Below, one piece after another: positions 21,532-26,803 of a stretch of DNA of 64,000 bases. The translations under genes were made by a program, and so were the position numbers. The notes beneath the pieces are model-generated. The model saw nothing but the letters and a program-made list of their open reading frames with translations. It did not search any database and had not been told where the DNA came from. This stretch comes from Candidatus Poribacteria bacterium (GTDB lineage Bacteria; Abyssobacteria; SURF-5), in NCBI GenBank assembly GCA_016215705.1, contig JACRIR010000130.1, positions 11,485-75,484 on the forward strand. Reading direction: 5' to 3'. Numbering within the stretch: position 1 is the first letter of the stretch; every line of letters begins with the position of its first letter.

Positions 21532-24500
21532 ATGAGCAAAATCACATGGCTGCATCTGTCTGATTTCCATTTCCGGACAGAAGTGAACCCCAACACAAGC
21601 AAGGTTGAGGATTTCAACAGCGAAATTGTCCTTTCGAGTCTGCTTGATGACATCAAGACCTATCCAGCCGAGAATGGGTTCAAGATCGACTTCATAATTA
21701 TCACGGGCGATATCGCTTTTTCCGGACAGCAACACGAATATCGCAAAGCAGAGGAATTTTTGGATGAACTGCTCGGTGCTCTCAAACTCGGAAAGGACCG
21801 TCTTTTTGTCGTGCCGGGCAATCATGATATCGATAGAAGCAAGATCAAGAATTTCCTGAAACCCACTTTGGACAGCGTTGATAATATCAACGGTTTCTTA
21901 ATGGATAGTGAGGCGAAGGCCTTTGTATTTGGAAAGCTTCATTGCTACAAGGACTTTGTAAATAGATATTTAAAAAAGAACCTGAAATTTGACCATGAAA
22001 ACAACTATTTCTGGACGAAGATTCTATCGGTTCGGGGAACAAAGGTCGGGATACTTGGCTTGAACTCGGCATGGAATTCTTGTGGAGACAAAGACGAACG
22101 ACAACTTCTGATTGGCGAAAAGCAAGTGGCCGATGCGCTGAAGCAGGCAGAAGACGCAGATTTGAGAATCGCGGCGTTTCATCATCCTTTTGATTGGCTG
22201 AGAACCGATGACAGGAAGGTGGTTAAGCGGGACCTGGCCGAGAAATGCCATTTTGTCTTGCACGGACACCTGCATGAACCCGACTATAGTCAGGAAATTA
22301 TGGCGGATTCTCGTCTAGTGGTGACCATTCCCGCCGGCGCGTGCTATGACAAACGCCCGTATAGGAATTCATACAACTATGTGAACTTCGACACAGATGC
22401 AAGAAAGGGACAGCTTCGTCTGAGAGCTTATTGTGATAAGTTGAAAGGCTGGGTGGCAGACAACGAAGTATCGAAGAACGCCGAGGATGGTATATGCAAC
22501 ATTGACTTCAACATACGGACAATCAAAGAGCGACATACGCCCCGAAAGCGAGGGAAGCTCGCCGTCTCCTTGGAAATCCCTACCCAATACAGAAACTGGG
22601 TCGACACTCAGTGCGAGATACTGGATATCAAGAAACTGGTGGAAAGCAGAGACACGAAGTTAATCAACCTGGAACTTCCGCAGATATTCATACCGCTTTA
22701 CACAAGCTCCCCTATTGGCAAAAGAAGGGGTAGAAGGCCTCGCCTTGACACCGACGAACAACGAGAACCAGTCGATATTGAGAAACTGGTGACTTCAAGT
22801 GATTACCTGATCATAAGGGGCCAGGCGGGTTCGGGCAAAACGACACTTATGAAGCATATGGCTTACTCCATTATTCACGGGGGCGGCAAGTATGGACTCA
22901 CCGGCTATTTGCCGATTCTGATATTCTTGAGAGACCTGCCCAAATCCGTTACGCAGAACACAGGATCGGTTCCGGGTATGGACGCAGCGGAGAAGATTCT
23001 GACTGAGTACTTTCGAAGTAAGTGTAAGTGCGAAGCACTGAGCATCGAGTTGATCGAGGCGTTTTGTCGCGAAGGCAAAGCCATATTCCTTGTTGACGGT
23101 CTCGATGAAGTCCAGCCGAAGCTTCGGGAATTCATCACTGATTCTCTGGCGGATTTCCGAAGCCCATTCAACGCCACAACGAGTAAGATGGTCTTCTCAG
23201 GCAGACCGCACGGTATTGATGAGGCGGTTAACAGCAAGTTCCCAGGCAAGTGTGTGGATATTAACTCGCTGAATGCGGAGCAGGTGAGAGATTTCATCGA
23301 AAAATGGCTCAGGTGGGACAAGGAGTTGAAAGACAGGGCAAAGACTCCGGAAGACATGTTCGGCGAAATATACGGCCATCAAAGCGCTGAAGAGTTGATA
23401 AGCACGCCCCTTATGTTGACTGCCGCCTGTATTCTCTACCATTACGATAGGAAGCTGCCGGAACAGAGGGCCGAATTGTACGAGAGAATTATCAACAACC
23501 TGATATACAAGCGTTTTGAAAATCCCGTTGAAGCGCTGGACCTGTTGATGAACATAGCCTATAGGACTCATAGCGATAAGAAAAAAGGGTTCAGCAGGAG
23601 ATTTGCGCTCGACCTCATGACGCCCGAACGTCAGAAGAGAAACGACGAAACTGAACGGCAATATGATATAAGAGTAGGTGCGGAGTTTGCTCACATTGAG
23701 CAAGACTGCGGATTGCTCAGGCTCGATAAGGGAGAATACAGCTTCTGGCACTTGAGCTTTCAAGAGTTCCTGGCCGCGAGAGAGATAGCCACCCACAAGC
23801 GGGACTTCACAGGGGCCATTCAAGAATACTGGGACGATGATTGGTTCAACGAAACGCTTCGTTTGTTTATCGGTCATTTGAGCAACACGCATCCGGCCGA
23901 GGCCAACGGCATAGTGGAAGACCAACTGAGAAAAGAAGATCGATCACCTTTCAGGCATTGGCGGCAGGCGGCCAAATCGTTGCTCGATATCTACCCCGCC
24001 ATGAGATACAAGCAAGTCGTCGCTAAGGCCCAAGAGTGCTTGTCGAACATAATCAAGAAAGCAGAAGACCCGAAGGTCCTGGCCGACGCCGGTGAAACGC
24101 TCGGCTGGCTGGGAGATACACGGAATCTGAAGGAGTTTGTGGAAATTCAAGGGGGCCAATACGAGTTGGAGGGACTAGGTAAAACAACTATTAAACCGTT
24201 TGAGATGGCCAAATATCCAGTAACCAATCAGTGGTATGAAGAGTTTATCAAGGCAAATGGATATAAGGAAAAGGAGTTCTGGACACCGAAAGGATGGGAA
24301 TGGCTGAACGAGGGGGAATGCCAGGAGCCTTTCTACTGGCATGATCGAGCCTGGAAATGCCCGAACTCGCCGGTTGTCGGTGTCAGTTGGTATGAAGCGG
24401 AAGCTTTCTGTCGCTGGCTCACTGCAAGAAAGGATGGTTGCTCATACAGGCTGCCGACGGAACAGGAATGGCAGGCGGCCGCAGCCGGTAAAGAAGGGCG

Positions 24501-24801
24501 GGAGTATCCGTGGAAGGGCCGTTGGCGTAAGAATTGCTGCAATACAGATGAGTCCGGTATCGGCAAGACGTCAGCGGTCGGGATTTTTGCCAAAGGCACA
24601 ACGCCGGAAGGTGTGGCCGATTTAGCCGGAAATGTTTGGGAGTGGACCGATAGTTGGTATGATAAGGACAAGGACGCAAAGGTGCTGCGGGGCGGCTCGT
24701 GGGGCGACGGCCGTATCTTTGCCCGGTGTGCGTTCCGTAACTGGTTCAACAGGGCCAACCGGAACTACGTCGTGGGTTTCCGCTGTGCTAGGATCAAATA
24801 A
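21532..24801 (+). CDS. DGR-diversified calcineurin-like phosphoesterase - NACHT NTPase - FGE-sulfatase protein
   Basis: A 1089-aa three-part protein. (1) Residues 4-300 are a calcineurin-like metallophosphoesterase: D11-x-H13 (SDFHF), GD at 59-60, GNHD at 96-99, HH at 217-218 and GHLH at 245-248. (2) Residues about 420-600 are a NACHT-type P-loop NTPase: Walker A GQAGSGKTT (430-438) and Walker B FLVDGLDEVQ (519-528), followed by helical STAND-like sequence to about 860. (3) Residues about 872-1089 are an FGE-sulfatase (formylglycine-generating-enzyme-like, C-type-lectin fold) domain, with PVTNQWYEEF, GVSWYEAEAFCRWL, YRLPTEQEWQ and GNVWEWT. Its last 40 residues are the DGR variable region. By family knowledge the last domain is a ligand-binding display surface here, not an enzyme. 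The role is probably a sensor-switch-effector in signalling or defence. No signal peptide, so cytoplasmic. Less GC-rich than its neighbours. Confidence 0.93.
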   Translation: MSKITWLHLSDFHFRTEVNPNTSKVEDFNSEIVLSSLLDDIKTYPAENGFKIDFIIITGDIAFSGQQHEYRKAEEFLDELLGALKLGKDRLFVVPGNHDIDRSKIKNFLKPTLDSVDNINGFLMDSEAKAFVFGKLHCYKDFVNRYLKKNLKFDHENNYFWTKILSVRGTKVGILGLNSAWNSCGDKDERQLLIGEKQVADALKQAEDADLRIAAFHHPFDWLRTDDRKVVKRDLAEKCHFVLHGHLHEPDYSQEIMADSRLVVTIPAGACYDKRPYRNSYNYVNFDTDARKGQLRLRAYCDKLKGWVADNEVSKNAEDGICNIDFNIRTIKERHTPRKRGKLAVSLEIPTQYRNWVDTQCEILDIKKLVESRDTKLINLELPQIFIPLYTSSPIGKRRGRRPRLDTDEQREPVDIEKLVTSSDYLIIRGQAGSGKTTLMKHMAYSIIHGGGKYGLTGYLPILIFLRDLPKSVTQNTGSVPGMDAAEKILTEYFRSKCKCEALSIELIEAFCREGKAIFLVDGLDEVQPKLREFITDSLADFRSPFNATTSKMVFSGRPHGIDEAVNSKFPGKCVDINSLNAEQVRDFIEKWLRWDKELKDRAKTPEDMFGEIYGHQSAEELISTPLMLTAACILYHYDRKLPEQRAELYERIINNLIYKRFENPVEALDLLMNIAYRTHSDKKKGFSRRFALDLMTPERQKRNDETERQYDIRVGAEFAHIEQDCGLLRLDKGEYSFWHLSFQEFLAAREIATHKRDFTGAIQEYWDDDWFNETLRLFIGHLSNTHPAEANGIVEDQLRKEDRSPFRHWRQAAKSLLDIYPAMRYKQVVAKAQECLSNIIKKAEDPKVLADAGETLGWLGDTRNLKEFVEIQGGQYELEGLGKTTIKPFEMAKYPVTNQWYEEFIKANGYKEKEFWTPKGWEWLNEGECQEPFYWHDRAWKCPNSPVVGVSWYEAEAFCRWLTARKDGCSYRLPTEQEWQAAAAGKEGREYPWKGRWRKNCCNTDESGIGKTSAVGIFAKGTTPEGVADLAGNVWEWTDSWYDKDKDAKVLRGGSWGDGRIFARCAFRNWFNRANRNYVVGFRCARIK
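24680..24793 (+). repeat. DGR variable repeat (VR)
   Basis: 114 bp at the 3' end of the target gene, aligned without gaps to the template repeat at 26258-26371. There are 18 mismatches, all between 24703 and 24770, and every one is opposite a template A. The first 23 and last 23 bases are identical to the template. The mismatches change 11 codons between residues 1058 and 1080 (G1058, D1059, G1060, I1062, F1063, F1068, W1071, F1072, A1075, Y1079, V1080). The identical 3' segment is where the initiation-of-mutagenic-homology element should lie. Confidence 0.97.
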
Positions 24802-24834
24802 TTACGCTTTGCCCTTTTACGCTTTTACCCTTTG

Positions 24835-24851
24835 GGCCGCCGAAGGCGGCC
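24835..24851. other. GC-rich hairpin downstream of the VR
   Basis: GGCCGCC, GAA loop, GGCGGCC: a perfect 7-bp stem 42 bases after the VR and 14 bases before the avd start. DGRs often have a DNA hairpin or cruciform just after the VR that promotes target recognition. The distance here is longer than in the phage BPP-1 example, so the role is uncertain. Confidence 0.5.
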
Positions 24852-24864
24852 GAATTCTCAGAAT

Positions 24865-25203
24865 ATGCCACAAGAAGTAGACGCCATCACCAGGTTGTAT
24901 GATTATGTGCTCTGGCTTATACCCAAGCTCGAGAAGTTTCCTCGGAGCCAGAAGTTCTTGCTGGCCGACCGAATGGAGAATCTGCTGCTGGATATTCTTG
25001 ATCTCCTGATTGAAGCTGCCTATTCCCGCGAGAAATCGGCTTCTTTGAAGGCGGCGAATTTGAAGCTGGAGCAAATGCGATACCTGATAAGGCTTTCGAA
25101 GGACTTGAAGCTAATCGACCTGAAGAGTTATGAATTCTCTGCTCGCGCCATTAATGCCGTCGGGGTTTCCATCGGTGGCTGGCTCAAATACAGCGAACAG
25201 TGA
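24865..25203 (+). CDS. avd: DGR accessory variability determinant (Avd), four-helix-bundle protein
   Basis: A 112-aa, almost wholly helical protein (YDYVLWLIPKLEKFPRSQKF start, KLEQMRYLIRLSKDLKLI third helix, then INAVGVSIGGWLKY). This is the bAvd / 23S-rRNA-intervening-sequence four-helix pattern. Avd forms a basic pentamer that binds the reverse transcriptase and the template RNA and is needed for mutagenic retrohoming. ATG 24865 is chosen; a TTG at 24832 would place the hairpin inside the gene. The stop overlaps the RT start by 4 bp, so the two are translationally coupled. Confidence 0.92.
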   Translation: MPQEVDAITRLYDYVLWLIPKLEKFPRSQKFLLADRMENLLLDILDLLIEAAYSREKSASLKAANLKLEQMRYLIRLSKDLKLIDLKSYEFSARAINAVGVSIGGWLKYSEQ

Positions 25204-26294
25204 AAACGCACAAAAATCTATACAGCGGAATCACCTCCTTTGATAACCTGCTTTTGGCGGCAAGGAAAGCGCAAAGGGGCAAGAGATTCAAAGAGTCTAC
25301 TGCGGTTTTCAATCTGAATCTCGAAAGAGAGCTTTTGTGTATCCAGAAGGAACTGCAGGAGATGACCTACCGGCATGGCGGGTATCAAGATTTCTACGTC
25401 TACGATCCGAAACGGAGGCTGATCAGCGCGGCTCCATACCGGGATCGGATTGTGCATCATGCCCTTTGCAACGTCATAGAACCGATATTTGATCGCATCT
25501 TTATTTACGACACTTACGCCTGTCGAAAACGAAAAGGTGTCCATGCAGCCGTCGATAGATATAACGAATATGCCCGCAAGTACACATATGTGCTGAAATG
25601 CGATATTCGGAAATATTTTCAGAGTGTTGATCACGAGATACTTCTGGAAATGATCTCCCGAAAGATTGCATGCCCACAAACAATGTGGTTGATCACGAAA
25701 ATCATCGCTTCCCGGGACGATAAGAGCCATGTCTCATACTTCGAGAATGATACCCTTTTCACTCCATTCGAGCGGAAAAGAGGAATCCCGATCGGGAATC
25801 TCACCAGCCAATTTTTTGCCAACGTGTATTTGAATGGTTTTGATCATTTCGTAAAGGAGATTCTTGGACAGCCGTACATTCGCTATGTTGACGATTTCGT
25901 TGTGTTCGGGAATTCAAAAGGACGACTGCATGAAGTCAACGAAAAAATACAGGCTTATCTTTCCTCGTTGCGCTTGAACATCCACGAGCGAAAATGCCGG
26001 ATATACAGAGTAAAGGACGGTATTACGTTTCTCGGCTATCGTATTTTCCCAACCCATCGGTTACTCAAGAAAGACAACGTGCTGAGGATGCGGCGAAGGT
26101 TGAAGAAACTCAGCCGTAAATACAGCTCGGGCATGGTTTCGCTTCCGGCAATCAAGCTGAGGATACAAAGTTGGATTGGCCATGCCGGTCATGCCGACAC
26201 ATTTCGGTTGAGAGCAAGAATGCTTGCGGATGCAGTCTTTCAAAGGGGTGAGACCAGAGGTGCTGCGGGGCGGCTCGTGGAACAACAACCGTAA
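25200..26294 (+). CDS. DGR reverse transcriptase
   Basis: A 364-aa RT of the DGR clade. D135 in KCDIRKYF is the first catalytic Asp, and Y229-V-D-D232 (IRYVDDF) is the active-site motif. [18 protein letters not shown] (195-212) has the IGxxxSQ motif that distinguishes DGR enzymes from group II intron and retroviral RTs and is linked to their adenine-specific infidelity. There is no maturase or endonuclease domain. It starts at GTG 25200, overlapping avd. The last 37 bases of the gene lie inside the template repeat, so its C terminus (RLVEQQP) is encoded by the template in another frame. Confidence 0.97.
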
Positions 26295-26371
26295 CAATGC
26301 CCGGTGTGCGAACCGTAACAGGAACAACAGGAACAACCGGAACAACAACGTGGGTTTCCGCTGTGCTAGGA
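26258..26371 (+). repeat. DGR template repeat (TR)
   Basis: 114 bp matching the VR at 24680-24793, offset by exactly 1578 bp. The core 26281-26348 is built of AAC/AAT and AGG codons when read in the VR frame: 14 AAY codons and 2 AGG codons, with 30 adenines. AAY codons are usual in DGR templates because adenine mutagenesis of them can give most amino acids and never a stop. The TR overlaps the 3' end of the RT gene. Confidence 0.97.
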
Positions 26372-26533
26372 CTTGGATTCCTTGGTTGGCGCCGGAGCCT
26401 TGTCTTTCACGGAAGACAAGGGTGTGCGCCATCCAAGTCCAGGTCTCGCTCCTGTGTTGGCTCTCTCGAGCCAACCGAAACAAAAAGCTCCCTGCTCGGG
26501 CTGGTAGCGTATGTGCGAACGCTCGGGCAGGGA
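26369..26533 (+). ncRNA. Structured RNA 3' of the DGR template (probable cDNA-priming region)
   Basis: Five helices can be drawn. H1 26369-26378 with 26431-26440 (10 bp, taking in the last bases of the TR); H2 26388-26392 with 26426-26430; H3 26398-26406 with 26413-26421 (9 bp, 6-nt loop); H4 26456-26463 with 26468-26475 (8 bp, TCTC loop); H5 26489-26495 with 26527-26533, enclosing 26506-26510 with 26519-26523. In the studied phage DGR the RNA just downstream of the TR binds RT-Avd and primes cDNA synthesis. The position here fits. From 26534 to 26803 there is no gene; a 7-bp hairpin (GTCAGAG/CTCTGAC) lies near 26644-26670. Confidence 0.7.
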
Positions 26534-26724
26534 AATATTTCATTGATTTATTCGGGTAACATGCCGTTGAGATGCAGCTCGCAATAAGGATCTATCGATG
26601 CATTCGGCTGAGATTCGTACTATCCAACTAATATGACGGGCAGTCAGAGGACCCGTGTGGTTCTCTGACACCCGGCCTGCCGCTGCGTTCCCCCCTTAAG
26701 ACCGGAAGCCTTCTTCGAGGCCCG

Positions 26725-26767
26725 GCTTATTCGGGGACACCATGCGGCATGGCGTCCCCGAATAAGC
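26725..26767. repeat. REP-like palindrome, copy 3
   Basis: A 43-bp member with arms GCTTATTCGGGGACACCATG and complement (one mismatch) around CGG. Outer GGCCC/GGGCC bases extend the stem. Upstream of yedF. Confidence 0.85.
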
Positions 26768-26803
26768 GGGCCGTTTCGCAGTAGAAGCGGAAGGAGGCTT
26801 TCC

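Follow-up and report, generated by a model that had tools for sequence, protein, structure and literature searches.

A chromosomal diversity-generating retroelement with a phosphoesterase–NACHT–lectin target related to the anti-phage protein DS-8

The window analysed here, a 64,000-nucleotide stretch of DNA, contains a complete diversity-generating retroelement (DGR) at positions 21532-26537, comprising a target gene with its variable repeat (VR), avd, a reverse transcriptase (RT) gene, the template repeat (TR) and a structured RNA (Table 1). Every part is intact when both strands of this region are read: as claimed in an earlier note on this DNA, each of the named components can be located and the ORFs are open. 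Judged from their ORFs, the neighbours to one side of the locus are biotin and pyruvate dehydrogenase-type genes, and those to the other side are of YedF-like, MFS and flagellar kinds. These metabolic and flagellar surroundings are in keeping with the ordinary flanking genes (pdhC, yedF) that the same note described; no phage genes were seen among the ORFs of the flanking region, nor do the flanking genes form an obvious defence island, and the DGR is a cellular one. In an empty-site synteny test, the sole family member having both pdhC and yedF carried them on separate contigs. A near-perfect 24 nt palindrome at 26722-26770 is a dispersed repeat; with its surroundings (a 164 bp query) it has 83 matches in the genome, many of them both-strand pairs, at ~40 places.

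Table 1. Features of the DGR locus (window coordinates)
Feature	Position	Strand	Description
DGR target ORF	21532-24801	+	1089 aa; Metallophos, NACHT, FGE-sulfatase (Pfam)
Variable repeat (VR)	24682-24793	+	112 bp, ends target gene; repeat D1
CCCTTT-rich tract, VR to hairpin	24794-24834	+	by-eye comparison of VR 3' flanks
GC-rich inverted repeat	24835-24851	+	7 bp stem and GAA triloop; 42 nt after VR
avd accessory protein	24865-25203	+	112 aa from ATG; NF033474, PF22296 bAvd
DGR reverse transcriptase	25200-26294	+	364 aa, GTG start; RVT_1 match (Pfam)
Template repeat (TR)	26260-26371	+	112 bp, overlaps RT 3' end
Structured RNA, spacer-like	26365-26537	+	fold z = -5.2; covariance model R1 match 26434-26533

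The VR is in frame with the large target gene and closes its ORF, as had been proposed. TR and VR align without gaps over their whole length with 18 mismatches, all of which fall at TR adenines (18 of the 32 adenines and 0 of the 80 other TR bases; hypergeometric p = 1.7e-12), and the TR-to-VR changes are 10 A to T, 7 A to G and 1 A to C. Homology on the VR side reaches 5 nt further upstream, to 24677. Read in the frame of the target, the TR has 17 codons that can vary, most of them AAC; adenine mutation can turn none of these into a stop codon, and together they allow ~8e17 different protein tips. A genome search with the pattern given by the initial 66 bp of the TR, allowing 3 mismatches, gave no further VR copies.

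The avd assignment is borne out by a match to NF033474 (DivGenRetAVD) of 106 bits against a cut-off of 80, and an ATG start at 24865 is more likely than the TTG at 24832 because initiation at the latter would read through the inverted repeat that follows the VR. The RT carries the DGR-type motif to which attention had been drawn (PIGNLTSQ) together with YVDD. Its best match of solved structure is 8ub7 (E 2.6e-60), which we take to be the BPP-1 DGR RT, with group II intron RTs far behind (about 1e-19), and a direct search shows BPP-1 Brt to be 38% identical to it. In a tree of 29 RTs, the non-DGR side of which consists of four group II/RT-Cas1 RTs and the other RT of this genome, the DGR RTs are split from these with support of 100/100. 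The window RT lies inside the DGR clade – a phylogenetic check suggested in the earlier note – as sister to the RT of related locus L022 (66% identity; 99/96) and then to that of L023 from Brocadiaceae (96/95), and it clusters with RTs of cellular contigs, separate from the branch holding phage RTs. All of the DGR RTs in the tree have the motif [IL]G(N/S)xxSQ and the remaining RTs have PQG. Because outgroups are few and branches long, we take from the tree only the separation of DGR from non-DGR RTs and the closest neighbours. A genome-wide search finds two RT genes and one avd.

The final 35 bp of the RT ORF lie within the TR, so that, as previously recognized, the TR both follows and overlaps the RT gene. 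This order does differ from that of BPP-1, but it is neither unusual nor novel, since the TR also lies behind the RT in relatives L022, L023, L026, L028, L041 and L042, and overlaps its end in L022 and L028. The structured RNA predicted downstream of the TR folds far better than shuffled sequences (Table 1), opening with a stem formed between the TR 3' end (GGACTTGGAT) and ATCCAAGTCC, after which come two hairpins. The covariance model R1, built on six sequences, also recovers L068 (E 5e-13) and L027 (2e-5), both from outside the model-building set, matches weaker than E 0.001 being left out. Of the 24 base pairs, 22 have both-sided changes when eight DGR sequences are compared, with 95% of cells pairing, in an alignment that was fitted to the model and leans towards the structure; a six-sequence alignment not fitted to the model already has such changes in 20 of the 24. 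None of 500 shuffles attains any of the five measures used, and sliding the pairing abolishes the signal. An Rfam scan returned no family for this stretch, the only matches being sub-threshold, snoRNA-like and outside the RNA. In BPP-1, recruitment of the RT–Avd complex falls to the spacer that lies between TR and RT, which is folded (PMC12875486), and by analogy the RNA behind the RT would do the same here.

The GC-rich inverted repeat downstream of the VR is likely to be a target-site DNA hairpin or cruciform. Its DNA fold has a z of only -1.2, and counterparts are kept in an orphan target elsewhere in the genome (see below) and in most of the relatives, where the usual form is a similar GNA triloop about 35-41 nt past the VR with a CCCTTT-rich tract in front. 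In published phage DGRs the hairpin has a GRNA loop of 4 nt and lies 4-34 nt from the VR (PMC3240598), whereas here there is a triloop at a distance of about 42 nt. The CCCTTT-rich tract between VR and hairpin, ~35-40 nt long, is found again in DGR targets from several phyla and after a target in Thiodictyon.

Although the earlier reading of the locus as a complete cellular DGR stands, it missed the identity of the target, a phosphoesterase–NACHT–lectin protein with anti-phage relatives. A calcineurin-like phosphoesterase (MPP) domain occupies residues 7-250 and a NACHT NTPase domain residues 425-594, and the VR is carried within a FGE-sulfatase/C-type-lectin domain (residues 873-1087). The metal motifs SDFH, TGD, GNHD, HH and GHLH can be read in the ORF, as can Walker A (GQAGSGKT) and Walker B (FLVDGLDE) sequences. 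The target matches NF053861 (DS8_antiphage) with an E of 5.7e-53 and 179.9 bits, below the 790-bit equivalog cut-off and with its best stretch spanning the phosphoesterase only, and it matches PADLOC PDC-S60 with an E of 2.7e-52. DS-8, a DefensePredictor system, is a metallophosphatase–NACHT protein in which mutation of either domain abolishes phage defence (PMC13092281); the target has the same order of domains with catalytic motifs present, and it differs in scoring below the equivalog cut-off and in having a DGR-diversified FGE domain as its C-terminal part. It also has the central STAND NTPase and VR-containing C-terminal CLec domain of the DGR-diversified NACHT-CLec proteins that have been proposed to act as antigen sensors, and a calcineurin-type domain is among the target domains listed in the same work (PMC10907252).

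MPP-NACHT-FGE proteins are encoded beside a DGR in two other genomes. The L023 target, which has its own DGR, matches DS-8 continuously through MPP and NACHT (residues 8-697); the other example is the second target of L022 (genome G360), the first target there being a methyltransferase-NACHT-FGE protein. A protein of the MPP-NACHT-FGE type (27% identity) is present on a Thiodictyon plasmid, with no RT among the listed genes surrounding it. In the searched set the host phylum is represented by three genomes, and the target was found in this one alone. We know of no phage-defence assay for any lectin-tipped member.

Two peculiarities of the repeats in related DGRs may be mentioned. Five of 19 VRs examined, the one described here being counted among the 19, have frameshifting indels of 1-2 nt relative to their own TRs (L022 8483-8600, L023 6455-6573, L043 6710-6821, L027 2106-2232 and L046 6042-6173). 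Both MPP-NACHT-FGE relatives are included, the count being small and made after the fact, and the indels could have arisen by slippage of the RT, through the loss of receptors that are self-reactive, or as errors in assembling genomes from metagenomes. In L023, L041, L042 and L026 there is also a recurring one-base difference at the 3' ends of the repeats (VR GGACTC, TR G(T/C)ACTC) that is reminiscent of the BPP-1 IMH/IMH*; it is absent from the window TR and VR.

Contig 219 of the same genome (L002/L044) carries an orphan second target, C219, whose NACHT-FGE half is 71% identical at the DNA level to that of the window target. Its N-terminus is a different ATPase domain, such that the sensor half is retained and the N-terminal half swapped, and there is no RT or avd on the stretch of contig 219 around it. 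Compared with the window TR, its VR is changed at 20 of the 32 adenines and at 14 of ~80 other bases, and its 3' flank, including the CCCTTT tract and hairpin, is better kept than the coding part (6 of 60 positions changed, versus about 26%). The 14 non-adenine mismatches leave recent diversification in trans by the window TR unsupported, and because these are combined with an adenine bias and a better-conserved 3' flank, C219 has the look of a target that is old or was templated separately. Other FGE genes exist in this genome.

We consider it probable that the target is an NLR-like (STAND) anti-phage receptor made of a single protein, and that this chromosomal DGR serves to diversify its sensor tip. 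In favour of this reading are the adenine-only differences, the Avd and RT families, the RT tree, the covarying RNA, the kept hairpin, the MPP-NACHT-FGE architecture, the homology to DS-8, the phenotypes of DS-8 mutants, the L023 match and the antigen-sensor proposal for NACHT-CLec proteins. Set against it are the restriction of the data to one genome, a DS-8 match of 180 rather than 790 bits, and the lack of an obvious defence island. Following the order of retrohoming steps in BPP-1, RT and Avd would bind the structured RNA downstream of the TR, the TR would be copied into cDNA with errors at adenines, and the cDNA would replace the VR, guided by the identical ends and the DNA hairpin 3' of the VR that are seen here. 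Up to 17 codons of the lectin-fold sensor could thus be rewritten. Binding of a ligand by the sensor would then switch on the NACHT NTPase, and the infection would be halted by the DS-8-related phosphoesterase, with a nucleotide or nucleic acid as its substrate. We suggest more tentatively, and with more doubt than confidence, an active anticipatory receptor in which a DS-8-type phosphoesterase-NACHT effector is joined to a phage sensor that is continually re-made, with further targets elsewhere in the genome sharing the sensor half and having other effectors.

The DGR could instead be a working one with a NACHT-lectin target that functions in recognizing kin or self, or in signalling, and not in phage defence. 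The ligands bound by FGE/C-type-lectin targets are diverse, a signalling function has been proposed for other targets of cellular DGRs (PMC10907252), and the absence of a visible defence island would fit, but the N-terminal half of the target is homologous to the anti-phage proteins DS-8 and PDC-S60, and both DS-8 domains are required for defence (PMC13092281), making this explanation unlikely. We think it more improbable still that a once-active DGR has fallen silent with its VR fixed: although the data come from one genome and the paralogous target C219 lacks a nearby RT and differs from the TR at 14 non-adenine positions, all of the ORFs at the locus are open, the RNA and hairpin are conserved, and the VR has no non-adenine mismatch where drift would have scattered mismatches across the other bases. 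That a phage or prophage DGR happens to sit in the chromosome is barely credible, for while the RT family is common to phage DGRs, phage genes are missing nearby, the RT groups with those of cellular contigs apart from the phage branch, and the target is not a tail protein.

The anti-phage receptor reading places the locus among systems that have been recognized before, as DGR-diversified NACHT-CLec targets and a calcineurin-type domain are already published (PMC10907252); it is a well-formed further example of a class first described a few years ago and not a new type of system. It resembles DGR 3 and DGR 6 of Thiohalocapsa PB-PSB1 (RT clade 5D; PMC10907252) in coupling an NTPase to a FGE/C-type-lectin domain with a C-terminal VR, and in having a cellular host and extra target loci without an RT. 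It departs from DGR 3 and 6 in that a DS-8-like phosphoesterase, NACHT and VR are united in one polypeptide, and in its host, a member of a phylum for which the searched set contains three genomes. An RT, Avd, adenine-specific TR/VR, a structured RNA after the TR and a hairpin after the VR are shared with BPP-1, in contrast to the position of the overlapping TR behind the RT and the nature of the target. The ternary conflict systems (Kaur 2020, PMC7159879) similarly include a DGR-diversified FGE/FGS domain in a putative conflict system, and related systems use calcineurin-type phosphoesterases as effectors, as may the window target, although no vWA/MoxR partners were seen at this locus.

The RNA covariation model, which has no Rfam counterpart, offers a means of finding TRs located behind the RT. 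An immune role for DGR-diversified NACHT-lectin proteins has been proposed in the literature, where we found no test of it. Because the N-terminal half of this target is homologous to DS-8, which has a mutant-sensitive phage-defence phenotype, the proposal becomes directly testable, and an approach is opened in which the effector and NACHT half would be held constant and the hypermutated sensor tracked.
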